NCBI GenBank assembly: GCA_028284385.1
Contig: JANQRT010000022.1
Coordinates: 1-64,000 of the forward strand
Reading direction: 5' to 3'
DNA: 64,000 nt
Origin: Opitutaceae bacterium
Lineage (GTDB): Bacteria; Verrucomicrobiota; Verrucomicrobiia; Opitutales; Opitutaceae
Numbering within the stretch: the stretch's first letter is position 1; every line of letters starts with the position of its first letter. Both the position numbers and the translations under genes were made by a program. Below the pieces are notes generated by a model. The model had not been told where the DNA came from, did no database searches, and saw nothing but the letters and a program-made list of their open reading frames with translations. Shown piece after piece: positions 1,021 through 57,944 of the stretch.

Positions 1021-2544
1021 CTATTTCTTTTCTCGTGGAGCTTTCAACGCGTTTGCGTAAAGGATCGATGCGTCGGTGATCTGATCAGGCGAACCTCCTG
1101 ATTTACGATTCAGCAATTTGCCATTGGAGTCGTAATAGCGGATCTCCATCCGTCGATTGTCGAGAGGGCCTTTGAAATCCAGAACCAAAAAGTTTCTTTG
1201 ACCAACGCGATCAACATCCGGCTCATCAAAAATGTCGTATCGGCTTTGATTGTTTCTTCGACCCTCCCATGAGCCCGAGGTTAAAGGAGAGGTGGTGATC
1301 TCGTGAAGTGTGTACCGTTCTCCCTTAATGCCTGCTCTGCCAGGTATCCCCGGCGCGCCGCCACCAACGTATTCAATTTTGTTCACTTCACCGAAATGGA
1401 CGTCTCCTGACAGAAAGACTACTCCATCGATGCCTTCCTCGACGATGCGATCGACGAGGTACTTCCACTCGTCATTAAGATTCTGATACTCGTAGCTATC
1501 CAATACTTGGTTCCCAATGCATATGATATTGAAGCGGGCAGGATAGCTCCTGAAATCGCTAGACATCTGGCTTTGAGCCCAGACTAGCTGATTGACGAGC
1601 CATTCCATCTGGCCCTTGCCGATCTTGTGTTTCTCTTTTCCAAAGGGCTTTGGATTCGAGGTGGCGCTGGTCAGATAATTTCGATTGTCCAGCAAATAGA
1701 AATTGGCGTCTCCCCAGTTGAAGAAAGTGAAAATACCAGGGGTCTCTGGCAGACCCGAGCTGGGATTCGCCCAAAACAGATCGAATACTTCCTTCGCGAT
1801 CCCTTTGAGGGGGAAGCTGCTGCCAATATCGTTAGGTCCGTAATCGTGGTCGTCCCAAATAGCGAAATGGTGGGCGTTGGCTAGGAGGCCTCTCAACTCG
1901 GGGATGGCTCTATCGTGAGTCCATCGATGAATCATTCCTTCGCGACTTTCGAAATCGTTCTCCCGATAGTAGACATTGTCGCCCAGCCAAAGCATGAGGT
2001 CAGGCCTTTTCTCGTAGATCGATTCGAAAATGTAGTAGTCTCCGCCATACGGATCTCCTCCCTCGCGATCGTAGCCTTCTTCGTTGATGAAGGCGCAGCT
2101 TCCTGCGGCTACGCGAAAGTCGAAGATGGAGTGGCGCGAATCGCCATCGGGAATAAATCGCCAACGTGGTTTTACCTGGAAACGTCTAGGGACTTTGATG
2201 TTGGCTTTGTATTCTTCGCGAAAATACGTTTCCTGAAGATCGTCGTTTACGAAGACTTCGTATTCATAATGTTGACCGGGTACTAGTCCTTTTGTAAGCG
2301 TCACTTTCGCGACATTCGCGTTGTTGGCAGTCGTTTTGACTGTAGGACTTTTGTGTCTTTCCGCCCCACTCGAATCCGATTTCCAGTACTCGATTCTCAC
2401 TTCGGCCGGCTCTGAAGTTTGAGTCCAGATGGTCACGGTTTTCATGGTGCTGGTAGTAGGCATCGGACCATTTAGAAGAGCCGGACCAGCCCATACTTGA
2501 AAAGACAGGAAAATCGAGAAGCTGATGAAAAGGATGGATTTCAT
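1021..2544 (-). CDS. PhoD-like alkaline phosphatase / metallophosphatase, exported
   Basis: The 507-residue protein has a signal peptide (residues 1-19, ending VWAG). An N-terminal fibronectin-like region (about 25-110) precedes a calcineurin-type metallophosphatase core. The metal-binding blocks of the PhoD family are visible: GSCAF at 148, LGDNVYYR near 187, WDDHDYGPND near 230 and LSGDVHFGE near 378. PhoD enzymes are exported, usually Ca/Fe-dependent phosphomonoesterases or phosphodiesterases that release phosphate from organic esters. The length is usual for the family. It ends about 95 bp downstream of the lactonase gene on the same strand, so co-transcription with the sugar genes is possible. 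The family assignment is firm; the actual substrate is not. Confidence 0.9.
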   Translation of the reverse strand: MKSILFISFSIFLSFQVWAGPALLNGPMPTTSTMKTVTIWTQTSEPAEVRIEYWKSDSSGAERHKSPTVKTTANNANVAKVTLTKGLVPGQHYEYEVFVNDDLQETYFREEYKANIKVPRRFQVKPRWRFIPDGDSRHSIFDFRVAAGSCAFINEEGYDREGGDPYGGDYYIFESIYEKRPDLMLWLGDNVYYRENDFESREGMIHRWTHDRAIPELRGLLANAHHFAIWDDHDYGPNDIGSSFPLKGIAKEVFDLFWANPSSGLPETPGIFTFFNWGDANFYLLDNRNYLTSATSNPKPFGKEKHKIGKGQMEWLVNQLVWAQSQMSSDFRSYPARFNIICIGNQVLDSYEYQNLNDEWKYLVDRIVEEGIDGVVFLSGDVHFGEVNKIEYVGGGAPGIPGRAGIKGERYTLHEITTSPLTSGSWEGRRNNQSRYDIFDEPDVDRVGQRNFLVLDFKGPLDNRRMEIRYYDSNGKLLNRKSGGSPDQITDASILYANALKAPREKK

Positions 2545-2639
2545 GGTCTCGATAGTGCTGCTGCGGTGATGAGATTCAAAGCAGAACTCGAAAAGCGACG
2601 AATCGTAACGCGTTCTTAAACTTGTCCGTGAGAGTCTCT

Positions 2640-3497
2640 CTAGCCTTCGAAGGCGTTAGCCGGAATACCGACCGCTCCGGGGCGACAAACGAATAGATTG
2701 CCGCTTTGCGGATGCCTGCCTAATTCCTCCTCGCTCATACCGACACTGGCGGTAGTAATGTAAAGGTCGCCTAAGTCGTCCCCTCCAAAGGCGCAAGCCG
2801 TCACTCTGGGAACCGGAAGCGGTATCTCTTCGAGAATCTCCCCTGTGTCTCGATCGAAGCATACGACGCGATTTCCGTTGAAGAAAGCTATCCAGAGATT
2901 GCCCTGAGTATCGATGGCCATGCCGTCCGGAACGCCCGGAAGCGATTCGGTGGAGAAGGCCATGCGTCGATTTGAAATGTCTCCCGTTTCTTGATGGTAG
3001 TCGAATTTATCTACTCTCTTGTTTCCTGAATCGATGTAGTAGAAAGCGTTTTCCCACCAAGTGAGACCATTGGAACAGCCGACTCCGTCGAAAAGCTGTT
3101 CGCATTTACCCTTTTTGTTCAGGCGAAAGAATCCGCCGTTTTTATCGGATCCTATTGTGCCTGCTAGCAGATTTCCAAGCGGATCGCACTTCCCGTCATT
3201 GAAACGTCCGTTCATGGAATCCTTTGACGGCGAATCCAGGACCTCTTGCGACCCCGTCCGAGGGTCGAACGCCATGAATCCGTTTTCCGTGGCGAGAATC
3301 AATCCACCTGAGCTTCTTGGAACGACAGTTCCGACTTGTATGCCGATTTCCCAGATTTCCTTTTCCCCCGTGGAGGGAGTATATCGAAGAACTTTGCCTT
3401 CTCGAATATCCACCCAGTAAAGAGAATCCTGATACCAAATTGGTCCCTCGCCTAGAGTAGACGTTCTTTCCCAAGCGATTTCCAGTTCTAAACTCAT
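2640..3497 (-). CDS. SMP-30/gluconolactonase/regucalcin-family lactonase
   Basis: The protein has 285 residues from the ATG at 3497. I chose that start because it overlaps the upstream stop as ATGA, a typical translational coupling; an upstream in-frame start would add 10 unlikely residues. The six-bladed propeller signatures of the SMP-30 family are present: GEGPIWYQDSLYWVDI at the N-terminus with the metal-binding Glu, FNDGKCDPLGNLLAGT, and VPDGMAIDTQGNLWIAFFNG. Such enzymes open sugar lactones to aldonic acids with a divalent metal. There is no signal peptide, so it acts in the cytoplasm. With the overlapping sugar isomerase it forms a two-gene unit for oxidative sugar catabolism; which lactone it opens is unknown. 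Confidence 0.88.
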   Translation of the reverse strand: MSLELEIAWERTSTLGEGPIWYQDSLYWVDIREGKVLRYTPSTGEKEIWEIGIQVGTVVPRSSGGLILATENGFMAFDPRTGSQEVLDSPSKDSMNGRFNDGKCDPLGNLLAGTIGSDKNGGFFRLNKKGKCEQLFDGVGCSNGLTWWENAFYYIDSGNKRVDKFDYHQETGDISNRRMAFSTESLPGVPDGMAIDTQGNLWIAFFNGNRVVCFDRDTGEILEEIPLPVPRVTACAFGGDDLGDLYITTASVGMSEEELGRHPQSGNLFVCRPGAVGIPANAFEG

Positions 3498-4243
3498 GTT
3501 GCTAGCGCTCGCATTTTTTCCACGCATGATTTGAGGGCGGGAACGGGATCTTCCGGGTCGGCTTCATATTCAAGAATAGATACGCCGTTGAAATCCTGAT
3601 TTTCAAGTTCGGCCAAAAGGGCTGGCAGGTCGAGCGTACCTTCTCCTACCACCGTGTCATTCCATTGGCCATTGGGCGAGAACGTGAAATCCTTGAAATG
3701 CATCCCTTTAATCTTTCCTGAGTAGTCTTTGGCCCACTGCACTGGATCTCCATGGCGAGGTCCGATTTGCATAACCCATGCCGTATCCATGCAAAGCCCT
3801 ATCTGCGGCATTCCTAAATCGATAAGCAGCTGCATAACATCAGGGCTTCCTCCGAACATGTAGCCGCCGTGCGAGTGAATTCCCACTTGTATGCCATAAG
3901 CGTCGCTCCATCCTTTTACTTGGGCAATGGCTTTGGAAAAAGTGCCGACTTTAAAATGGCAGGATACGTGTTTGGCTCCCGCTGCAGCCGCGCTTTCGAA
4001 GATCGCTTCGTCGTTCGCGTCGCCGTCGAAAGTCTCGACTCCAATGGAGACGATTGAGATCCCCGCGTCTTCGTAAATCGTGACCGCTTCTTTCCATTTC
4101 CCCACATCGTGGAAATCCGCATGGACCCGACACACTTCCACGCGTTCAAGGCCAATCTCCCTCACTTTGCTAGCGACTTCGGCGTTTTCCTTGAAGTTTC
4201 GAAAGCAGAAACTCTGCACTGCTAGTGTATCCAGAATACTCAT
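3494..4243 (-). CDS. Sugar phosphate isomerase/epimerase (xylose isomerase-like TIM barrel)
   Basis: The 249-residue protein has the AP-endonuclease-2/xylose-isomerase-like barrel architecture. The usual metal-ligand positions appear in order: a Glu in SIGVETFDGD, a His in IGIHSHGG, an Asp in IGLCMDTAW, a His in KGMHFKDFTF and a Glu in VSILEYEADP. Family members isomerise or epimerise sugars and inositols in the cytoplasm. The gene is the first of a unit with the SMP-30 lactonase and is divergent from the sulfatase at 4489. The specific substrate cannot be assigned; L-xylulose, tagatose and inosose enzymes look alike at this level. Confidence 0.85.
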   Translation of the reverse strand: MSILDTLAVQSFCFRNFKENAEVASKVREIGLERVEVCRVHADFHDVGKWKEAVTIYEDAGISIVSIGVETFDGDANDEAIFESAAAAGAKHVSCHFKVGTFSKAIAQVKGWSDAYGIQVGIHSHGGYMFGGSPDVMQLLIDLGMPQIGLCMDTAWVMQIGPRHGDPVQWAKDYSGKIKGMHFKDFTFSPNGQWNDTVVGEGTLDLPALLAELENQDFNGVSILEYEADPEDPVPALKSCVEKMRALAT

Positions 4244-4488
4244 AATGTTTCTTTCCTTGATCTAGGCGGGAAAGTTCCCAAACGCCAACAACGAAATGCG
4301 AATTAGCTCAAGGATTTCCGTCCTCGAGGAATCGAGATCTTCCCGCCTTTGGCCAGTGTGAGAGGATTCTTAAGTAAGAATCTCAGGCTGGTCTGCGTCG
4401 GTTTTTCTATAGTGAAGCGATAATGGGTGCCCTTAATTGCCTCTGAGAGAGTAACTAAACGAGATCGCTTGTCGTTGCTAATCTAGAA

Positions 4489-6000
4489 ATGGCATATCCT
4501 TTTCCGATTCAGGTTTTTCAATTCATGTCTAGATTTAGAGCTTCCCTGTTTTTAATTGGGGTCGGTTTGCATTTGCAGGCCGCGTACTCGAGCAATGAAC
4601 TCAGTATCGAACGTGTTGATACTGGAGTCTCTATCAGCTGGATTGGAAACGAGCAGCTCTATCGTTCCACTGAGGTCGGCTTTCAGGAATCTGTCCTGGT
4701 TGCTGCTCAATCTCCCTACTTTGAAAAACTGGAGCAAACGGCTTTCTTTCGCCTATCGGATAACGTGCCCAATATTCTACTACTGATTGTCGATGACTGG
4801 GGTATCGATTCGATTCCGCTTTATAACCAGGATGCCTCCGCTTCGCTACCCCCTATGCCCAATCTTGATCAGCTAGCGGCATCCGGGATTCTATTTGAAA
4901 ACGCCTACGCTCAACCCACTTGTTCGCCAACGCGAGCTACCATGATCACAGGACGCTTCGCTTTTCGCCATGGCGTTGGAGCCCCTGTGTCCCAGAATGA
5001 GTCTTTATCCGAATCGGAGACGACCCTGCCGGAAGTCTTCGCCTTGGCCAATAGCCCTTATTCGGTGGCGGCCTTTGGAAAATGGCATCAGACACAAGGT
5101 CAGGCGGGAACGATAGATGATACACCGAATACGATTGGGGGCTGGCCTCATTATTCGGGAAGCATTGGAGGGGGAGTCGGCAACTACCAGAGTTGGCGTA
5201 AAGTCGTAAATGGATCTGCCACTACCGGAGTGCAGACGTATGCCACTACCGAGACTGTAAACGATGCTTCGAACTGGATCGATGCCAATCAAGGCAATCC
5301 TTGGTTCGCCTGGGTCGCCTTTAATGCGGCTCATGCGCCTTTCCATAATCCTCCTGATTCATTGCATGGCTATGAAGGCATTCCAGACGAGCCTATGGGA
5401 GCTCAACGACGGCGCGCTTATGAAGCCAGTCTGGAAGCTTTGGATACGGAGATTGGGCGACTGCTTGAATCGGTTGATCTCAGCGAAACCTACGTTATCC
5501 TTTTGGGTGACAATGGAACTCCCAACGCCGTTGTTCAACCGCCTTTTACCAATTCCCGAGCTAAGGGTTCGCTCTACGAGGGAGGTACCCATGTGCCGAT
5601 GATTCTCGCTGGTCCTTCCATCACGCAGCCTGGAATGGAAGAATCGTTGGTCCATTGCGTTGATATCTTTGCGACGGTTCTGGGTATGGCTGGTATCCAA
5701 TACGAGGACCATCTGCCGGCCGAGACCGTCATTGATTCGGTTTCACTACTTGATGTCCTCGGAAACGCTTCTCCAATTCGTGAATACGTCCTTTGCGAGT
5801 CTTTTGGATCGAATGCCGGAAGAATCGGCAAAGCCATTCGGGAAGGTCCTTACAAGCTAGTAAGATTGGATGACTCGGCTGACGAATTCTACGATGTCGC
5901 TTCTGATCCCAGCGAGCAGGTCAATCTGCTTTCCGGTTCTTTGAACGCGGACCAGCAGGCAGCCTATGAGAAGCTGTCAGGTTTTCTCGGCGGTCTTTAG
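4489..6000 (+). CDS. Secreted type I sulfatase with extra N-terminal module
   Basis: A 503-residue sulfatase of the alkaline-phosphatase superfamily. The FGly signature CSPTR is at residues 145-149, followed by TMITGR. ILLLIVDDWGID (near 96) supplies metal-binding Asp residues, and ILLGDNGTP is the downstream metal-binding block. A hydrophobic segment near residues 17-34 looks like a signal peptide, so translation may really begin at the second ATG (4525); neither start has a clear Shine-Dalgarno. Residues ~36-90 form an additional module with a SPYFEKLEQTAFFRL ending. I have the impression that similar modules are often appended to secreted verrucomicrobial enzymes. Activity needs conversion of the Cys to formylglycine, and no modifying enzyme is encoded in this window. 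The sulfated substrate is unknown. Confidence 0.9.
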   Translation: MAYPFPIQVFQFMSRFRASLFLIGVGLHLQAAYSSNELSIERVDTGVSISWIGNEQLYRSTEVGFQESVLVAAQSPYFEKLEQTAFFRLSDNVPNILLLIVDDWGIDSIPLYNQDASASLPPMPNLDQLAASGILFENAYAQPTCSPTRATMITGRFAFRHGVGAPVSQNESLSESETTLPEVFALANSPYSVAAFGKWHQTQGQAGTIDDTPNTIGGWPHYSGSIGGGVGNYQSWRKVVNGSATTGVQTYATTETVNDASNWIDANQGNPWFAWVAFNAAHAPFHNPPDSLHGYEGIPDEPMGAQRRRAYEASLEALDTEIGRLLESVDLSETYVILLGDNGTPNAVVQPPFTNSRAKGSLYEGGTHVPMILAGPSITQPGMEESLVHCVDIFATVLGMAGIQYEDHLPAETVIDSVSLLDVLGNASPIREYVLCESFGSNAGRIGKAIREGPYKLVRLDDSADEFYDVASDPSEQVNLLSGSLNADQQAAYEKLSGFLGGL

Positions 6001-6081
6001 AAATTGTAAATCCGTATTTAGAAAAGACTGGAATGTTGGGTTCGGCTTGCTTTATCGACTGACTGGCGTACCGGTTGCATC

Positions 6082-6726
6082 ATGCTTTCCTTCAGGTCGC
6101 TTCTGTTGATCGGCATTACTTTTTCAAGCGCGGGATCGCCAGCTTTCTGTAGTGGACATTTGGATGTGAGCAATGTTGTGCCTACCTCCGATTTTCGATA
6201 CGTTAGGCAATCGAGTAGCAGTTCCTTTCAGAGGCAGCGTTTCGAACCCACAAGACCAAGCTATTCGCAAACCCGGAATGTATCGAGATGGGGAGGCGCT
6301 GATCGTCTCGGTCCTCAAGCAACTCGGAATCGTTTGAGCAAACGCTATGAGCCTACGCGGCCGAAAACCACTTTCGATGATCGCTCGGCTCCTGCGATTT
6401 CCCAAACGAAGCGGTATGAACCTACGAGACCGAATCGTTCTCAAGATTTTGGCAGTTCTTCGTTTGCTTTCGAAAACTACCAGGAACCATCTTCGTCTCG
6501 GGAAAAGGGAAGCTTTTCTCCTTTCGAGAGCTATGAACAAGGAATGTCGGGATATGGCAAGTACGAGACTTTGAATTCCGGCTATCAGAACTACCAGGAA
6601 AGTAGGGGAGCAGGCCGTCGGATTCGGAAGATGGGAAGGATGATCTGCAAGCCTGTAGAATCCACGTTTAAATTTTCCAGGAAAGCGGTTTCCAACATCT
6701 CCTTTGGGTGGCTTCCGTTCCTATAG
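6082..6726 (+). CDS. Secreted protein of unknown function with RYEPTRP repeats
   Basis: I do not recognise a family for this 214-residue protein. It starts with a plausible signal peptide (MLSFRSLLLIGITFSSAGSP, then AFCSG). The mature part is rich in Ser, Arg, Tyr and Pro and looks disordered. The heptad RYEPTRP or RFEPTRP occurs three times (near residues 54, 87 and 111), each preceded by Gln or Lys. Later ENYQEPSSSR and QNYQESRGAG form a second imperfect repeat. The C-terminus is basic and ends with a short hydrophobic stretch. It lies 81 bp after the sulfatase on the same strand. A surface or envelope role is a guess from composition alone. Confidence 0.6.
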   Translation: MLSFRSLLLIGITFSSAGSPAFCSGHLDVSNVVPTSDFRYVRQSSSSSFQRQRFEPTRPSYSQTRNVSRWGGADRLGPQATRNRLSKRYEPTRPKTTFDDRSAPAISQTKRYEPTRPNRSQDFGSSSFAFENYQEPSSSREKGSFSPFESYEQGMSGYGKYETLNSGYQNYQESRGAGRRIRKMGRMICKPVESTFKFSRKAVSNISFGWLPFL

Positions 6727-20144: not shown

Positions 20145-20735
20145 ATGCTAAGAGGTTCAAAAAAGTGCGGGTTTTGGCTTCGAGGCGGATTCTCTCTGCT
20201 TGAGCTTTTTATCGCCATGTCGGTGATCGCCGTTCTTACGGGTCTTGGCATTGCCCTTTATCCAAGTGTCATGGATTCTCAAAGACAGAATCGAGCTAAA
20301 GCGGACATCGCTGTACTTCAAGCGGCTCTCGAGCAATACAAGACCCGATTCGGGATGTATCCAAAAAGGCTTGCTGCTGATACTGATATGGAGGTTCACA
20401 TATTTAATTCTTTAAACGGTAAAGTCACCCCTGATGGAAATGCTACGCAAGTCGAAGCCATGCTTAACTTGAGTGTTCTCGATCTGCAAAACGATAACTA
20501 TCCTGATTTCAACGACAACACATCGGATTCCTGGGTGGCCAATCGTGTTGTCGATCCTTGGGGAAATCCTTATTTGTATCGATTTGATCCCGACAAAACG
20601 AGCTATGCCAACTGGAACAACTTTCGCTACGCGCTTTTCTCTGAAGGACCCGATGGCGATTCCGACGATGTTTCGAACGAAGGCTTCTATGATCCAGAGA
20701 CTTCGAAGAACGAGGATAATATTTATGCGGAGTAG
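20145..20735 (+). CDS. Type II secretion GspG-like major pseudopilin
   Basis: A 196-residue prepilin. The type III signal is RGG-FSLLELFIAM: cleavage after Gly15 leaves Phe at +1 and Glu at +5, followed by a 20-residue hydrophobic helix. The next segment, DSQRQNRAKADIAVLQAALE, then QYKTRFGMYP, is characteristic of GspG, as is the C-terminal globular domain with DPWGNPYLYRF and SEGPDGDSDD, which in GspG binds calcium. It heads a run of overlapping genes, the last codons overlapping the next start by 11 bases. No GspE, GspF or secretin gene is present here, so the machinery would have to be encoded elsewhere. Confidence 0.9.
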   Translation: MLRGSKKCGFWLRGGFSLLELFIAMSVIAVLTGLGIALYPSVMDSQRQNRAKADIAVLQAALEQYKTRFGMYPKRLAADTDMEVHIFNSLNGKVTPDGNATQVEAMLNLSVLDLQNDNYPDFNDNTSDSWVANRVVDPWGNPYLYRFDPDKTSYANWNNFRYALFSEGPDGDSDDVSNEGFYDPETSKNEDNIYAE

Positions 20736-21567
20736 GTCGGAAAAGATTTCTTATGGTAGGGAGGCTTGTCCCCAAGCCTCCGTCAAGATTCCGGATTTCG
20801 GAGGCTTGGGGACAGGCCTCCCTACCATTATATCTAACTATCGGATCCGTCGTAAGAAAGCTTTCACTTTGCTAGAGGTCGTGATCACGCTTTCCATTAT
20901 CGTTGTTTTAGGAAGTTTCGTGTATTTTGGTGGGGACTACGGATCTGAGAGTCGAGCGTTGCAGAGAGCGGCCACCGATTTGCATATGCTTCTTAGGACT
21001 GCTCGCTCTCAGGCTATTCTCGATGGTCGTGACGCTCGCCTGATTATCAATATCGACGAAGACGACTCCAACCGCTTTCTACGATATGCCGGGGTGATCG
21101 TGCGCGATGAAAACAACCCGGCTTTGTGGAAGGCTACGCACGGTGGGCTGGTCCTGCCGGAAGGAATTTATGTCGTTCCTCATGAGGGATTCGGAGACGG
21201 TGTTGCCTACGGAGATTGGGATGTTAGCGTCACCAATCGAAAGAGCGTTTACAAGTGTATCAATTCGAATCCCAACGCCTTAGCCATTGCCAATGTAGAC
21301 TATCCTTTGATTGACTCGGTGACCGATAACGCTGGGGGTGATCCTCAATGGATTGTGTACCAGTTTTCTCCTGACGGGAGCCTGGATGCTTCCGATGCGC
21401 CTGGATGCCCGCTTGGAGCTGCTGCAGTTGATAATCAGATTGTATTAGCTCCGGCTATACGGAATGCTAATGACGATGTCGAATTTAATGACAGTGAAAA
21501 CATTCTGGGTATCCGACTTCGCCAGAACGGAGTATCGGTCGCGGTGAATGACCCTCTCGATCTATGA
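20725..21567 (+). CDS. Prepilin-like protein, Verru_Chthon cassette D type (GspH-like)
   Basis: From the ATG at 20725, which overlaps the preceding stop, the protein has 280 residues. The prepilin motif is RRKKA-FTLLEVVITLSIIVV with cleavage expected after Ala46 (Ala instead of Gly) and Glu at +5. Thereafter SRALQRAATDLHMLLRTARS is typical of GspH/FimT-like minor pseudopilins. Its leader is unusually long: residues ~10-35 are encoded by a REP-like palindrome (20755-20826). True translation may instead begin after the palindrome at a non-ATG codon. The stop overlaps the next ATG as ATGA. Naming as Verru_Chthon D rests on gene order and prepilin features and is an inference. Confidence 0.8.
   Translation: MRSRSEKISYGREACPQASVKIPDFGGLGTGLPTIISNYRIRRKKAFTLLEVVITLSIIVVLGSFVYFGGDYGSESRALQRAATDLHMLLRTARSQAILDGRDARLIINIDEDDSNRFLRYAGVIVRDENNPALWKATHGGLVLPEGIYVVPHEGFGDGVAYGDWDVSVTNRKSVYKCINSNPNALAIANVDYPLIDSVTDNAGGDPQWIVYQFSPDGSLDASDAPGCPLGAAAVDNQIVLAPAIRNANDDVEFNDSENILGIRLRQNGVSVAVNDPLDL
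20755..20826. repeat. REP-like palindromic pair, stem family GGCTTG, inside a coding region
   Basis: Two hairpins in inverted orientation: GGTAGGGAGGCTTGTCCCCA onward (20755-20781) and its mirror ending CCTCCCTACC (to 20826). Each has a GTAG foot at the outer edge. The element lies wholly inside the 5' part of the GspH-like gene and is open in its frame. A close relative is at 25980-26051. Confidence 0.9.
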
Positions 21568-22064
21568 TTAGGCACTTCGGATATAGATCTGTAAGAGGTT
21601 TTACTCTCCTTGAAGTGGTCCTCTCTCTTGCCGTTTTCCTAGTCATTGCAGGTCCGGTGGTTGGCTTATTAGCCCTAACCGCAAGAAGCGGAGACCAACA
21701 AGCCAAAGCGGTTAATGCCGAGGAGCTGAAGCGAATCATTTCTAACGAGCTGGTAGCCGCGGTGGACGATCTTACCCTTGCTTGGGATTTCGATGCCTCT
21801 GCTGTAGCCTTGTTTGCAAATGAAGATCTGGAGCAAATCGCCTTTTCTTCCGATGCGACTTTTGCCGATCAGTTCAAATACTTCTTTGTCGATGTGCGTG
21901 ACCCGGTGGACATTGTTGCTGATGTCGACAACATTTACCGTATCGTGTTATTGGATATACGCTGGCCTGCCTATATCGAGAGTGGAGGAACGTGGGTTGA
22001 CAATCGAGCGAACGTAACGGGGATTGAGCAGATTATTGTTCCGATCGTCATCAATCAGCCATGA
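21564..22064 (+). CDS. Prepilin-like protein, Verru_Chthon cassette B type (GspI-like)
   Basis: The 166-residue protein carries the prepilin signal RSVRG-FTLLEVVLSLAVFL, with cleavage after Gly12 and Glu at +5. It is small, as minor pseudopilins GspI are. The start codon overlaps the previous stop in ATGA, and its own stop overlaps the next start the same way, so all are translationally coupled. The globular part shows no catalytic motif. Its role would be in the tip of a pseudopilus, by analogy with type II secretion; assignment to cassette protein B is from position and size. Confidence 0.82.
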   Translation: MIRHFGYRSVRGFTLLEVVLSLAVFLVIAGPVVGLLALTARSGDQQAKAVNAEELKRIISNELVAAVDDLTLAWDFDASAVALFANEDLEQIAFSSDATFADQFKYFFVDVRDPVDIVADVDNIYRIVLLDIRWPAYIESGGTWVDNRANVTGIEQIIVPIVINQP

Positions 22065-22999
22065 CAAAAAGCGGTAAAGGTTTCACGCTTATCGAGCTTA
22101 TCGTAGCCCTGGGAATTACAGCGGCCATGGGCTTCTTTGCCGTTAGCATCGCCATAGGCGTCGCCGATGTATGGAGTGTGGCAGAAGAACGATCAGCTGA
22201 GAGCGCCGAAGCCCAATTCGCCTTGGACACCATTGCCCAGGATCTCGAGTCTGCTTTCTTTTCCGAACAGGGCCTTACTATGTTTGCCGTTACCGCCCTT
22301 GAGGACGGTTCGAATTCGGGTAGATGGGTAGACGCATCGAGCTTAGCCAGACCGTCAACGCCGGATCCCTTTAATCCCACCGACGATCAGTACGGTTGGG
22401 CGGGAAGCTGGATTCGCTTTTTCACGGCTGCTCCCGGGTTGAATGCTGTCGGCTATCAATTGATACGTAGTCCAGTCGTTGGTTCCTCTAGCACGATCCG
22501 CTACAATCTGTACCGCGGTGTTGTTCGTATGGATCATACTCTAAATACCGGCTATGGTATCACCTTAAATGATTATTCAACTGCCGGTACTCCTACTCTT
22601 GGAAATCCTGTCGAAGTGGTGTCGCCCCGAGTCGAGAACATTATTCTGAGCAACGTCATCGATTTTGGGATACGACTCTACATTTATGATGAATCGGCCG
22701 AAGAACCTGGTGATGCCCCGCCAGGACTGCGCATCATTTTCCCTGCGGATGGCGTGAATCAGCTCGATGCTGCTGATGATGAGCACTTGGCCAACACGGG
22801 ACTTGGACTTGCTTACGGTTCGCGTTTTCCGGAAGCAGCTGAAGTGATCATTCGCGTCTTGGGTGAAAGCGGCTGGGAGCAGCTTGAGCTCCTAGAAGAG
22901 CAGGGCGGAACGGCTGCTGAATGGCAGCGAATAGTGGATGAGAATTCGACTGTGTATCGACGTTTTGTCGACATGAGAGCGAGACCTTTTGCGGGATGA
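22061..22999 (+). CDS. Prepilin-like protein, Verru_Chthon cassette C type (GspJ-like)
   Basis: The 312-residue protein begins MTKSGKG-FTLIELIVALGI, with a seven-residue leader, cleavage after Gly7 and Glu at +5. The region after the hydrophobic helix (SAEAQFALDTIAQDLESAFF) resembles GspJ. A large beta-rich globular domain follows and is longer than in standard GspJ (about 200 residues). The gene overlaps both neighbours by four bases (ATGA at the 5' end, ATGAGG at the 3' end). It probably assembles with the two smaller proteins encoded just before it; this is inference from type II secretion minor pseudopilin complexes. Confidence 0.82.
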   Translation: MTKSGKGFTLIELIVALGITAAMGFFAVSIAIGVADVWSVAEERSAESAEAQFALDTIAQDLESAFFSEQGLTMFAVTALEDGSNSGRWVDASSLARPSTPDPFNPTDDQYGWAGSWIRFFTAAPGLNAVGYQLIRSPVVGSSSTIRYNLYRGVVRMDHTLNTGYGITLNDYSTAGTPTLGNPVEVVSPRVENIILSNVIDFGIRLYIYDESAEEPGDAPPGLRIIFPADGVNQLDAADDEHLANTGLGLAYGSRFPEAAEVIIRVLGESGWEQLELLEEQGGTAAEWQRIVDENSTVYRRFVDMRARPFAG

Positions 23000-25965
23000 G
23001 GATGATTCGATATTGGAAGTCGAAAAAGGGATTCGCCTTGATCCTCGTGGTGGCGTTGGCAGGAATCATCGCCTTGCTAGCAGCTTCGCTGGTCTCTCTT
23101 TCCCAAGTAGAATCCGCCTCCAATCGCTACAAGACGCATCTGAGAACCGCTAAGGATAATGCTAGAGCCTCGCTCAATCTTGCGCTTGGCGACTTGCAGA
23201 TGTTCGCCGGGCGAGATCAGACCGCTACCGCTTTGGCAGACGGATTCCGTTCTCCAAGGGACGAGGATTCTAATGCCAATAGCGCTCCCGAGGACGCCTT
23301 GAACAATCGAATCTATCAACCCTTTTGGACAGGAGTCTGGGACAATGATCCTCTCACTGGAGATGATCCCGTTTGGCTTGTTACACGACCGCAGCGAACA
23401 GGAATGGACTTCAGTCCTGGAGTAGGAGGGGACTTGGCGGATCCGTTTGTGGATCCAAACGATGCGGGATTGACTACGGAGTATGTCGCTCTCGTTGGTC
23501 CTGCGACAGCGGAGTTTGCTGGTGGCTTGGGGAGCCAGGCGGATTTCAATGTGGCGGTACCTCTAGAAAGTTTTCAAACTGACTCTGCTCTCGGTATAGC
23601 TGGAAATGCGACGACAGGAAAATATGGATACTGGATTGGCGATTTAGGTACTAAAGCAAGTTATGCCGTTCCCCACCGATTGACCGACATCGGCCACGAT
23701 GATTACGCGAATAACCTTACCAACGGTTCACAAACCAGACTGGCCCAGATGATCGGTCAAACACAGACCATTTTGGAAATCGCGCCAGAGCTTCCGCCTA
23801 ATGCGATAAACATTCCGCTACTTGTATCTGATTTTCAGTTACGAAACAGTGTGCCAGGAGCCTCTTTTCTGACGCAGTTTACTGACTATGAAGCGGCAAC
23901 CCCATTCCAATATTCTTTGCCGCGCATCCGCCAAGGCTTCCACGACTACACGACCCTTTCGCGTGGTGTTCTTATTGATAGCTTGAATGGAGGCTTGAAG
24001 CGTGATCTTACACCACGCTTCTTTACTCTGGATCTCGATCCGGTGATTGATACGGAAATTCTACCTCATCTAAATATTGCTTATGCGTCGTCAACCGAAC
24101 CCATTCCTCAACGAAGGATTTATGACGCAGTTGATGTTTTTCCTGACAATGTTGTGACGACCTTGATCAATGAAAGGAGGCCTCGTATTGGTCCTGTAGT
24201 GACCGAATTTCATATCAACTTCGCCATCTATCTCGACAGGACTGGTGCAAACTTGAATGGAAGGCTTGAATACAATGGAAGTATCGAGCTTTGGAATCCT
24301 TATACCGGCTCTCTTGCGGATCCCAATGATGGATCCTTCACGGTTGATATCATCGGCTTTCCATCGATAACAGCAAACTACTTGGCTACTGATCCGGATC
24401 CCGATTTTTCAGATTCAGGGACGGCAGACCTTTCCAGTCATGTTAATACGAATGCATTTTCGCTTTCCATGGCTACGCCGCTACGAGCTGGTCAAACGCG
24501 ATCCTATTCGGGAGCCGATACCATAGTGATCGACGGGATAGGGACGGATACCAGGGTGCTTGATATCAGTTCCGACATTTCCTTCAACGATCCGACCCCA
24601 AGCAATACGGCTGATGATTCATTCGAGTTTAGGGTGACCGAAACTTTTGATCCAACCATCGTTATCCGTAACTCTAATGGTGAGGAGATCGCTCGGTATA
24701 CCATTCAAGACACCTATGATGCTTTTCCAGCGGGCGTTTTCGAATCGGTGAGTCCTATCGGAGATGCGTCGGCCACTTTCGGATACACTTGGGAAAGAGA
24801 AGATCCCCTGCTGGGTGGCGCAGATTGGTCGGATTTCGACCCTCGGATTGAAGCTATTGACGCCACCGAGCTCAATGCCTTTGATTCGGATCCTCGTAGC
24901 CTAGTCAATATTTCACATTTTATCCAAGATTCCACTACGCGAATCCTTGGCTATTCGGATCCGTTTAATGTTTCTCATGACGTTCCTGTTATTGAATTGC
25001 CAAGGCAAGAACTTGTATCGATGGCTGAGCTCCAGCATGCGGATCTATCAACAGGAATACGACGCCAGATTGGACGTTCTGTGGCTGATCTAGGATTGGC
25101 TACAAACTACAATAGATTATTCGACGAATATTTTCTATCAACCATTCCCCAGCCTGGTGTCGGTTGGAACGATGGGGATCCTTTTGCCAATGCTCGCATG
25201 AAGCCACAGAGAGGTGTCCCTCTAGCCACCCTTCAAAATGCTGGACTTAACTCAGCTCCAATGCTGATGCTGCAAGGAGCTTTCAACGTGAATTCAACTT
25301 CGATTGAAGCCTGGATAGCGGTTTTGAAAAGCATACGTATCAAATCATGGACCTTTCATGATGGATCAGGAGGTACGGATAGTATCGATTTTGCCAGTAC
25401 GGCTCCGGAATTTCAATTCGCTCACTATTCGCAGTCTGCCGAAGAAACTTGGGAGGTTGATGAATCGCAAAATATTCGAGAATCATTTCGGAGAGGATTG
25501 CGCTCTTTGACTGATGCTCAGATTGACGCGTTGGCCATAGAAATTGTTGAAAGTATCCGCACGAAAATAGATAATGACGGACCTTACGCAAATCTCACAG
25601 AATTTATCGACTCGGGAGATTTGGATACGGCTATCTTCAATGCAGGTCTCAATGATATAACTATTCTGCCTGGCTCGCCCCAATTCCTCAACCAAGCAAC
25701 CCTCCTGAACTCCTTGGCTCCCTTTCTAACAACTCGTAGCGATACTTTTCTTATTCGAGCATATGGTGATTCGAGAAATCCAAGTGATGAAAATGATATT
25801 ATCGCTCGAGCCTACTGCGAAGCAATTGTACAGCGCTTGCCAGACAAGCATCCAAGTGACGGGAATCCCACGCAGCCTATGCTGGCAACAAGTACTGATG
25901 TTGTCGATTTTGGCAGGCAGTTCCAAGTCATAGCATTCCGCTGGATGTCGGGGGAGGAGATATGA
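22996..25965 (+). CDS. Very large GspK-like prepilin, Verru_Chthon cassette A type
   Basis: The 989-residue protein starts with SKKG-FALILVVALAGIIALL: prepilin cleavage site after Gly12, but Leu rather than Glu at +5, as in GspK. The next segment NRYKTHLRTAKDNARASLNL resembles the post-helix region of GspK. GspK is normally about 300-330 residues, so this protein carries roughly 650 extra residues, rich in Asp, Asn, Thr and Ser, with beta-type patterns. The C-terminal part includes a helix-hairpin-like stretch (RRGLRSLTDAQIDALAIEIV). In verrucomicrobial cassettes the A protein is similarly large. It would be anchored in the inner membrane with the bulk in the periplasm. Confidence 0.8.
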   Translation: MRMIRYWKSKKGFALILVVALAGIIALLAASLVSLSQVESASNRYKTHLRTAKDNARASLNLALGDLQMFAGRDQTATALADGFRSPRDEDSNANSAPEDALNNRIYQPFWTGVWDNDPLTGDDPVWLVTRPQRTGMDFSPGVGGDLADPFVDPNDAGLTTEYVALVGPATAEFAGGLGSQADFNVAVPLESFQTDSALGIAGNATTGKYGYWIGDLGTKASYAVPHRLTDIGHDDYANNLTNGSQTRLAQMIGQTQTILEIAPELPPNAINIPLLVSDFQLRNSVPGASFLTQFTDYEAATPFQYSLPRIRQGFHDYTTLSRGVLIDSLNGGLKRDLTPRFFTLDLDPVIDTEILPHLNIAYASSTEPIPQRRIYDAVDVFPDNVVTTLINERRPRIGPVVTEFHINFAIYLDRTGANLNGRLEYNGSIELWNPYTGSLADPNDGSFTVDIIGFPSITANYLATDPDPDFSDSGTADLSSHVNTNAFSLSMATPLRAGQTRSYSGADTIVIDGIGTDTRVLDISSDISFNDPTPSNTADDSFEFRVTETFDPTIVIRNSNGEEIARYTIQDTYDAFPAGVFESVSPIGDASATFGYTWEREDPLLGGADWSDFDPRIEAIDATELNAFDSDPRSLVNISHFIQDSTTRILGYSDPFNVSHDVPVIELPRQELVSMAELQHADLSTGIRRQIGRSVADLGLATNYNRLFDEYFLSTIPQPGVGWNDGDPFANARMKPQRGVPLATLQNAGLNSAPMLMLQGAFNVNSTSIEAWIAVLKSIRIKSWTFHDGSGGTDSIDFASTAPEFQFAHYSQSAEETWEVDESQNIRESFRRGLRSLTDAQIDALAIEIVESIRTKIDNDGPYANLTEFIDSGDLDTAIFNAGLNDITILPGSPQFLNQATLLNSLAPFLTTRSDTFLIRAYGDSRNPSDENDIIARAYCEAIVQRLPDKHPSDGNPTQPMLATSTDVVDFGRQFQVIAFRWMSGEEI

Positions 25966-26774
25966 GGCACATTTCGAAAGGTAGGGAGACTTGTCCCCAA
26001 GTCTCCGGTACAGGCATAAAAGACGGAGGCTTAGGGATAAGCCTCCCTACCTTGGGTTTAAGGTTGTTGATCAGCGCTTTCACAGGCGCAGCTACGTGTT
26101 TGGCTTGCTCTGCTCAGGAGGAATTCGAAGAGGTTGCTGAAGAAGAAAAGCTGTTTTTCTCGGTCATGGCTTATGGAAACGATCTTTTCGAAGAGATAAA
26201 ATTCGTGGACGTCTACGAGCGACCTCTCACTTTGGAATTCAGACCTGATCGTCGGTCGAAAGTCTACGTTCACCCGATCATCGGAAAGCGGATACGGTTT
26301 TTTCGTGATGATGTTGATGAAAGGGGTGTGCCTATTGAAGTCGAAGTAGCGGTTGCCGATGTATCGGAAATTCAAAGACGGGCTTTGATTCTTTTCCTGG
26401 ACAAGCCTGATCGGCAATCGGATTTGCCATATTCCATCCTCGTAGCTGATGAAAGCGATGAGGTCTTTAATGGAGGAGACTTTCGCTTTCTTAATCTAAG
26501 CGGAGCCCCGCTTTACTGGCGAGCAGGGACTGAGAGCGCGGTTGTTGAGACAGGATTCAGCCCCGTGGTGAGTTATGATCCGTCCGACCGCTCTGCCTTT
26601 CCTATCGCTTTGGCTGCTCGAGTGAGAGACGAATGGGAAATCGTTTTTTCAACACGATCTCAAAGCCATCCCTCTTTGGGTACCCTTTTTATCATCAAGT
26701 CACCCCTGGAACCAGGGTCCCTTCGAGTGAGGGTGCACGCCAATCGGAATCGATTACGACCCGAGGGAAGTTGA
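25962..26774 (+). CDS. Secreted protein at the end of the pseudopilin operon, function unknown
   Basis: The ATG at 25962 overlaps the preceding stop (ATGA) and gives 270 residues. Residues ~7-30 are encoded by a REP-like palindrome, and only then does a hydrophobic signal-like segment appear (LGLRLLISAFTGAATCLACS, then AQEE). A TTG at 26052 just after the palindrome could be the real start. The mature protein is mostly beta-type and contains GGDFRFLNLSGAPLYW, a pattern I associate with small secreted verrucomicrobial proteins near such cassettes. No enzyme motif is visible. Position suggests it is a partner or substrate of the pseudopilus. Confidence 0.7.
   Translation: MRHISKGRETCPQVSGTGIKDGGLGISLPTLGLRLLISAFTGAATCLACSAQEEFEEVAEEEKLFFSVMAYGNDLFEEIKFVDVYERPLTLEFRPDRRSKVYVHPIIGKRIRFFRDDVDERGVPIEVEVAVADVSEIQRRALILFLDKPDRQSDLPYSILVADESDEVFNGGDFRFLNLSGAPLYWRAGTESAVVETGFSPVVSYDPSDRSAFPIALAARVRDEWEIVFSTRSQSHPSLGTLFIIKSPLEPGSLRVRVHANRNRLRPEGS
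25980..26051. repeat. REP-like palindromic pair, stem family GGCTTG, inside a coding region
   Basis: Same structure as the element at 20755-20826: GGTAGGGAGACTTGTCCCCA onward, with a mirrored arm ending GCCTCCCTACC. The arms have diverged slightly (AGACTTG versus AGGCTTA). It sits immediately after the start codon of the last gene of the operon and is open in frame. Confidence 0.9.
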
Positions 26775-40947: not shown

Positions 40948-41009
40948 GGACGACTCGGCGAGTCGTCCCTACCAAATTCATCAGGTAGGGATGAGTCGCT
41001 GACTCATCC
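40948..41009. repeat. REP-like palindromic pair, stem family GACTC
   Basis: Two hairpins back to back: GGACGACT/AGTCGTCC (40948-40968) followed by CTACC, then GGTAGGGATGAGTC with GACTCATCC (40984-41009). Each has a GTAG foot (read as CTAC on the left one). It lies after the convergent genes at 39901 and rhaA. A decayed copy (GGTAGTGGTCAG) may lie just after, around 41026. Confidence 0.88.
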
Positions 41010-46036: not shown

Positions 46037-46107
46037 GGTAGGGACGGCTTGCTAAGTCGTCCGAATGGCGTTGGTAGATGCGGATGACTCAGCGAGTCAT
46101 CCCTACC
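46037..46107. repeat. REP-like palindromic pair, stem family GACTC, between two BMC-P genes
   Basis: GGTAGGGACGGCTTGCTAAG then TCGTCC (46037-46062) and the inverted relative GGATGACTCAGCGAGTCATC then CCTACC (46082-46107). The feet are GTAG and CTAC at the outer edges. It may affect mRNA processing between shell genes inside the operon. Confidence 0.88.
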
Positions 46108-57368: not shown

Positions 57369-57393
57369 GTAGCGGCCAGCGTCCTCGCTGGCC
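57368..57393. repeat. REP-like hairpin, stem family GCCAGCG
   Basis: GGTAGC followed by the perfect stem GGCCAGC (57374-57380) and GCTGGCC (57387-57393), loop GTCCTC. The GTAG foot is immediately 5'. It lies just after the stop of the sulfatase gene and downstream of the RAYT gene on the other strand. It is the same family as the pair at 57872-57944. Confidence 0.92.
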
Positions 57394-57429
57394 GGACTAG
57401 TTCGCTAGTTAGTAGGGCTTTAACTACTA

Positions 57430-57863
57430 TCAGAAATTAATAACGTAGGGCCAGTCTTCTGGTTTGGAGACTAAGCTCTTTCTGACAGGGTTCATTCGTA
57501 TGTAATCCCCCAGGATTCATCGTTGCGAATACGATGATCGAAGAAGTCACGCTGCCATTGAATGCCCAGTGTTTTCGCGTTGTAGCTTTTCCAGGCTTTA
57601 ATTGTTGCTGCCATTCCTTGATCTGCTGGAAAGGAAAGCAGAGCGTGTAGGTGATCCGGCATGACAAGAAAAATGCGGCAGAACCATTTTTCAAATTTAT
57701 GATAATGGGCTACTGATTCTAAGATTTGATAAGCGATTTTGACATTTGCGAGATCGCTTTCTTGTTTTTTGAGGCAGTTTATCGTGATAAAGAAAAGAGA
57801 GCCTCCCTTTACCCATGATGGGGGTGTATGTACTAATTTTTTGCGTACAAATGAGTTGGACAT
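57430..57863 (-). pseudogene. REP-associated tyrosine transposase (RAYT), apparently frameshifted
   Basis: RAYTs are domesticated IS200-like Y1 transposases that process REP hairpins. The open part (57492-57863, 123 residues) has FFITINCLKKQ, the HUH motif in VMPDHLHALLSFP (residues 71-73), KAWKSYNAKTLG with a candidate catalytic Tyr94, and WQRDFFDHRIRNDESWG. The frame then ends at a TGA, but the next frame continues with YIRMNPVRKSLVSKPEDWPY, then VINF and stop at 57430, exactly the expected RAYT end. The shift falls at a run of five G (57507-57511). It is either inactivated or a sequencing error. REP hairpins of one family flank it on both sides. Confidence 0.88.
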
Positions 57864-57871
57864 TTGAAGAA

Positions 57872-57944
57872 GGTAGCGGCCAGCGTCCTCGCTGGCCAGA
57901 TTTTTATTGATGATTATTGGCTAGCGGGACGCTAGCCGCTACCT
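57872..57944. repeat. REP-like palindromic pair (BIME-like), stem family GCCAGCG
   Basis: GGTAGCGGCCAGCGTCCTCG then CTGGCC (57872-57897) and the inverted relative GGCTAGCGGGACGCTAGCCG then CTACC (57919-57944), spaced by an AT-rich linker. The outer feet are GTAG and CTAC. It lies immediately upstream of the RAYT start codon. Confidence 0.93.

Follow-up and report, generated by a model that had tools for sequence, protein, structure and literature searches.

Among the closest described counterparts of the elements reported here are the GTAG REPs of Opitutus terrae. The 2013 survey that describes them (PMC3733652; BMC Genomics 2013;14:522) states that REPs lie near the 3′ ends of genes, where the repeat may itself supply the TAG stop codon, and that dimers located within open reading frames encode 20–30 residues. 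The survey also notes that intragenic REPs are more frequent at NH2 ends than at COOH ends, that DnaE2 is among the targets, and that intragenic GTAG cases are most numerous in O. terrae. REPIN or BIME elements, which are found with RAYT (TnpAREP) transposases, are likewise composed of two inverted GTAG hairpins separated by a variable spacer, and are dispersed and mostly intergenic (PMC3116915; PMC8266576). The REPs are recognized by TnpAREP as single-strand hairpin substrates (PMC8266576). Rickettsia palindromic elements (RPEs) provide a further precedent, as these palindromes reside in frame in functional genes and N-terminal cases are expressed in vivo (as cited in PMC3733652; PMC10969869).

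The repeats examined in this study, which we call the F1 family and the related F2 family, share with the O. terrae REPs their GTAG hairpins, in-frame dimers of 20–30 residues (some of them NH2-terminal), placement at gene 3′ ends, TAG used as a stop, the involvement of an error-prone DnaE2, and a host in the order Opitutales. The comparison with the published families covers their described features. The present case differs in that a congener offers empty sites and in that one in-frame copy is ancestral and decaying. The organization of F1 is also that of a REPIN or BIME, but F1 occupies approximately 17 sites rather than hundreds, and a cognate REPtron was not found in the loci examined. 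RPEs differ in that they are about 150 bp in length (PMC10969869) and come from a different phylum, and only 3 of the 17 F1 sites are intragenic. Moreover, RPE-4 and RPE-6 are of the CGTC type and F1 units carry a GTAG tag, a distinction drawn from the tags. The in-frame REPs described below are a well-supported and ordinary example, with good comparative evidence, of the phenomenon reported in 2013, and not a new mechanism.

Two REP dimers reside in frame in one operon

The window, by which we mean the whole 64-kb stretch of DNA that was analysed, belongs to a genome of 5.39 Mb in 72 contigs, which a comparison of Rho places beside Pelagicoccus and the MAG PL25a_bin.151 in the order Opitutales. 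Gene ends were taken from a simple ORF caller. The operon of interest lies on the plus strand and includes a GspG-like pseudopilin gene (20145–20735; Pfam T2SSG, E = 4e-7), the TAG stop codon of which (20733–20735) overlaps the start of the next gene. This next gene, gene 1 (20725–21567; N_methyl, E = 1.2e-5), encodes a GspH-like minor pseudopilin, whose match to the GspH model TIGR01708 (E = 1e-8) falls under the cut-off of that model. Two additional pseudopilin genes follow (21564–22064 and 22061–22999; N_methyl, E = 5e-6 and 9e-5), and then a gene for a 989-aa protein with a hydrophobic N-terminal segment (22996–25965), for which no match was found in Pfam or NCBIfam. Gene 2 (25962–26774) encodes a putative exported protein that also lacks a family match in Pfam or NCBIfam, and whose start resembles a signal peptide.

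An earlier note, made from the sequence alone, had reported REP-like palindromes in frame near the starts of genes 1 and 2, and re-examination of the sequence locates both. Element A (20755–20826, no strand assigned) is a 72-bp head-to-head dimer of F1 units (20756–20781 and 20800–20825), and element B (25980–26051, no strand assigned) is a second 72-bp F1 dimer (units 25981–26006 and 26025–26050). Each is made of two inverted hairpins of 26 nt, both tagged with GTAG, and has a variable spacer between them. Sequences that match the unit GGAGGCTTGTCCCCAAGCCTCC with at most three mismatches occur four times in the window, each as an arm of element A or B, whereas none are expected from shuffles of the window.

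Both elements are open in the frame of the host gene, as the note had claimed, and each contributes exactly 24 codons. Element A encodes GREACPQASVKIPDFGGLGTGLPT and element B encodes GRETCPQVSGTGIKDGGLGISLPT, yielding the translations MRSRSEKISY-GREACPQASVKIPDFGGLGTGLPT-IISNYRIRRKKAFTLLEVV for gene 1 and MRHISK-GRETCPQVSGTGIKDGGLGISLPT-LGLRLLISAFTGAATCLACSAQ for gene 2. The placement of each palindrome ahead of a membrane-targeting segment also holds. In gene 1 this segment is RRKKA-FTLLEVV, in which a leader ending in Ala precedes an FTLLE-type helix, the arrangement expected of a type 4 prepilin. The length of prepilin leaders is variable, with some very long examples, and their last residue is Gly or Ala (PMC10191384); the Ala residue at position −1 of gene 1 appears compatible with processing. 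In gene 2 the insert occupies the n-region of the putative signal peptide.

The locations of the elements relative to the gene boundaries are similar. Element A begins 30 bases past the gene 1 start codon (+31 from the AUG) and 19 nt past the upstream stop, while element B begins 18 bases past the gene 2 start codon (+19 from the AUG) and 14 nt past the upstream stop. The ATG of gene 1 at 20725 shares an 11-nt overlap with the end of the preceding gene, and the ATG of gene 2 at 25962 forms an ATGA with the upstream TGA (25963–25965). The RNA folds predicted for elements A and B are very stable, at −62.7 kcal/mol (z = −12.2 relative to shuffles) and −45.4 kcal/mol (z = −7.4), respectively. Element B carries compensating changes in its left unit (G9–C22 to A–T) and in its right unit (G13–C18 to A–T); the local hairpin of each unit is kept, while the long stem joining the two units is broken. 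The spacers of the two elements are unlike, and therefore A and B represent independent insertions, as had been proposed. A local duplication is ruled out by the unlike spacers and arm variants.

The inserts are absent from orthologous operons

Comparison with orthologous operons, which the earlier note had recommended, provides empty sites for both elements. In the congener (G001), gene 1 reads MPSDYGESRQSQGFTLLEV and retains the same 11-nt overlap, and gene 2 reads MKYVRSIFFWALISATT and retains the ATGA. Neither carries the insert. The corresponding genes of G019 (MKGRLKSGFTLFELL and MKTCFQLFFPIWILISA) also start near the upstream stop and lack the insert, and G009, in which gene 2 has an orthologue, is likewise devoid of the repeat. 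Because the insert is lacking in the congener and in two further genera, the two 24-residue peptides are, by this comparison of sequences, lineage-specific insertions that lengthen N-terminal leaders. Outside the insert, genes 1 and 2 show 53% identity to their G001 counterparts, with a dN of 0.43 and a saturated dS, indicating that they are constrained.

Other relatives were less informative. The operon was sought in the Pelagicoccus loci around rho and was not found there, and thus these loci provide no empty sites. A scan of contigs for relatives with the 989-aa protein as query also found none. At the DNA level, F1 was detected in 2 of the 56 relatives searched, with nine sites in the congener and a single match in G044. 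The note had considered that the peptide might prove to be ordinary protein sequence, conserved in relatives that lack the palindrome. This is not what is observed, as evident by the absence of the peptide from the orthologues and by the narrow distribution of the repeat.

Translation most likely proceeds through both elements

A GAGG sequence at 20712 lies 9 nt upstream of the ATG at 20725, and this sequence, along with the conserved overlap, indicates that 20725 is probably the start of gene 1. From the end of the repeat to the prepilin helix there is no ATG, GTG or TTG, and therefore a later start would lose the prepilin motif. Restart of translation after the hairpin, which the earlier note had suggested, is thus excluded in gene 1 for these three start codons. 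In gene 2, a TTG immediately follows the repeat, and initiation there would yield MGLRLLISAFTG..., a plausible signal peptide. Restart at this codon is possible but unsupported: the sequence upstream of it, CCTCCCTACC, lacks a purine-rich ribosome site, whereas the ATG at 25962 keeps the ATGA overlap that is also present in G001 and G019.

These same observations bear on whether the elements are extragenic in practice, with translation beginning past the repeat and the palindrome serving as a 5′ leader. Such an arrangement has been inferred for most REPs at the 5′ ends of ORFs in P. putida, C. koseri and S. maltophilia, according to PMC3733652, and the TTG of gene 2 would permit it. We nevertheless consider it very unlikely for this operon, given the lack of start codons in gene 1 and of a ribosome-binding site before the TTG in gene 2. 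Translation through both elements appears most likely.

F1 is a dispersed and mostly intergenic family

The F1 family, to which both palindromes belong, thereby bearing out their designation as REPs, has the unit consensus GTAGGGAGGCTTGTCCYCAAGCCTCC, consisting of GTAG, a 9-bp stem and a 4-nt loop. This corresponds to a 20–50 nt palindrome preceded by GTAG. The GTAG is invariant in 19 distinct units, which had been collected by the presence of GTAGG or GTAGA at their start. Among these units, double-sided changes affect five of the nine stem pairs, an outcome reached by 2 of 500 shuffles, and the covariation score is 0.203 compared to 0.105 for shuffled units, with 96.5% of cells paired. The dimers are 71–73 bp in length and are formed by units in inverse orientation with varying spacers. 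Fourteen of the 17 sites lie outside any convincing gene, the exceptions being A, B and a linker in a Pol IV–DnaE fusion. Since the intragenic share is far below the coding share of a bacterial genome, most intragenic insertions have presumably been purged. Many of the intergenic F1 dimers are nested in a longer, composite repeat, a MITE-like carrier whose ends resemble TTAGAGACTGTCCAATAA and TTATTGGACAGTCTCTAAG (L003, L006, L009, L012, L018, L095, L096 and L099).

The related family F2 (GTAGGGAYGACTCGCYGAGTCRTCC) is present in the same genome, including two dimers in the window (40948–41009 and 46038–46106), the second of which is made of units from two subtypes. Approximately half of the 35 F1 and F2 sites have the 3′ end of a gene no more than 50 nt away. 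At three F2 sites (L147, L156 and L157, near position 1500), the upstream gene terminates at a TAG that belongs to the repeat itself, in the GGTAGG at the repeat edge.

Other copies reside in frame

An F1 copy on contig C11 (237002–237070) is in frame in a fused polymerase of 1466 aa (L105, frame 1787–6187), where it separates the Pol IV (DinB) domain from the PHP/DnaE domain. The fusion in the congener still contains a decayed right half of this repeat, in frame, and by this remnant the linker insertion is older than the split of the two species. The possibility that the REP created the 1466-aa reading frame was ruled out, as the polymerase is also fused in G001 and a similar fusion is present in G014. 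An F2 dimer (C62:128892–128958, L152) is in frame in an Lhr-type helicase, in a variable linker region between conserved regions. Another F2 dimer (C72:183251–183312, L153), also in frame, precedes the signal sequence in a gene for a PSCyt1/DUF1587 protein. The GTG start of this gene overlaps the upstream stop, in the same layout as that of elements A and B, and its G001 counterpart lacks the insert. Since a TTG follows this repeat, the coding status of the F2 copy is putative. The three N-terminal cases are suggestive, although as a post hoc observation they do not establish a preference.

No REPtron for F1 is found at the Y1_Tnp loci

There are five Y1_Tnp matches in the genome, and neither these nor the three in G001 have F1 sequences in the flanking 1.5 kb examined. 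Some of the five loci, including L027, are flanked by other palindrome families, and none by F2 within 1.5 kb. In the window, the region 57369–57944 (L030) holds a Y1_Tnp gene fragment (57561–57767, minus strand) with GTAGCGGCCAGCGTCC palindromes on both sides, and is apparently the REPtron of a further REP family. The F1 transposase may be lost, distant or acting in trans.

Insertion site and selection very probably explain the placement

We consider it very probable that two GTAG-tagged REP dimers inserted independently past upstream stop codons, and that the landing site together with purifying selection explains the observed pattern. F1 would be non-autonomous mobile DNA of the kind mobilized by RAYT/TnpAREP transposases, although movement by a RAYT is inferred. 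Elements A and B would have inserted 19 and 14 nt past a stop codon, where many REPs of this genome lie, and, as each stop is overlapped by the downstream gene, they would fall within the first codons of that gene. The TAG at the edge of the element is missing from two of the three reading frames, which together with a net insertion of 24 codons would leave both genes open. The added residues would then reside in a cleaved or tolerant part of the protein, namely a prepilin leader or a signal-peptide n-region. Survival would be limited to cases with an open frame and a tolerant N-terminus, and leaders and n-regions are such places. The extension is thus inferred to be translated and near-neutral, and neither special targeting of stop/start overlaps nor a coupling function is required. 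A point against this explanation is that no F1 REPtron was found within 1.5 kb of the Y1_Tnp loci here or in G001. Another is that two insertions in one operon, plus the F2 case at C72:183251, slightly exceed, in a post hoc count, what is expected for random tolerated sites.

That same coincidence of two hairpins at the same kind of spot in one operon, along with the stability of RNA structures that begin at +31 and +19, might instead reflect retention as operon regulators, in which a stem after the start codon tunes translational coupling or cleavage by RNase III uncouples the downstream genes. This seems unlikely, as the hairpins are absent from G001, G009 and G019. In addition, the compensating changes that preserve the short hairpins of element B while its long stem is broken point to a history as single-strand hairpin substrates of a transposase, rather than to selection on one long mRNA stem. 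A target preference for the stop/start overlap, as the earlier note had put forward, or for ssDNA or RNA features at such sites, would account for the location of elements A and B and of the F2 dimer at C72:183251, all of them near a start codon that overlaps the stop of the preceding gene. We regard this as extremely unlikely. Most sites are intergenic, and commonly follow a lone stop codon, and two intragenic copies reside in inter-domain linkers, away from gene boundaries. REPs in this genome are commonly located just 3′ of the stop codon of a gene, and the overlap only puts the N-terminus of the next gene there.

Insertion past upstream stops followed by purifying selection therefore remains our preferred explanation. 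With the empty sites in the congener, this operon is a well-documented case in which mobile palindromes have turned into putative translated sequence and the gene was not destroyed. It also suggests why the N-terminal leaders of operon genes receive such inserts, as nothing else immediately downstream of an overlapped stop is tolerant. The Pol IV–DnaE linker copy, common to two species and decaying in frame, shows that inserts of this type are retained on evolutionary timescales. A more speculative proposal, which we judge improbable, is that this lineage repeatedly co-opts REP dimers, such as elements A and B and the F2 dimer at C72:183251, as new N-terminal leaders for exported proteins whose genes begin at translationally coupled junctions, where hairpin and peptide together would adjust coupling and export. 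If true, recurrent capture would be a route for mobile repeats to become parts of genes.
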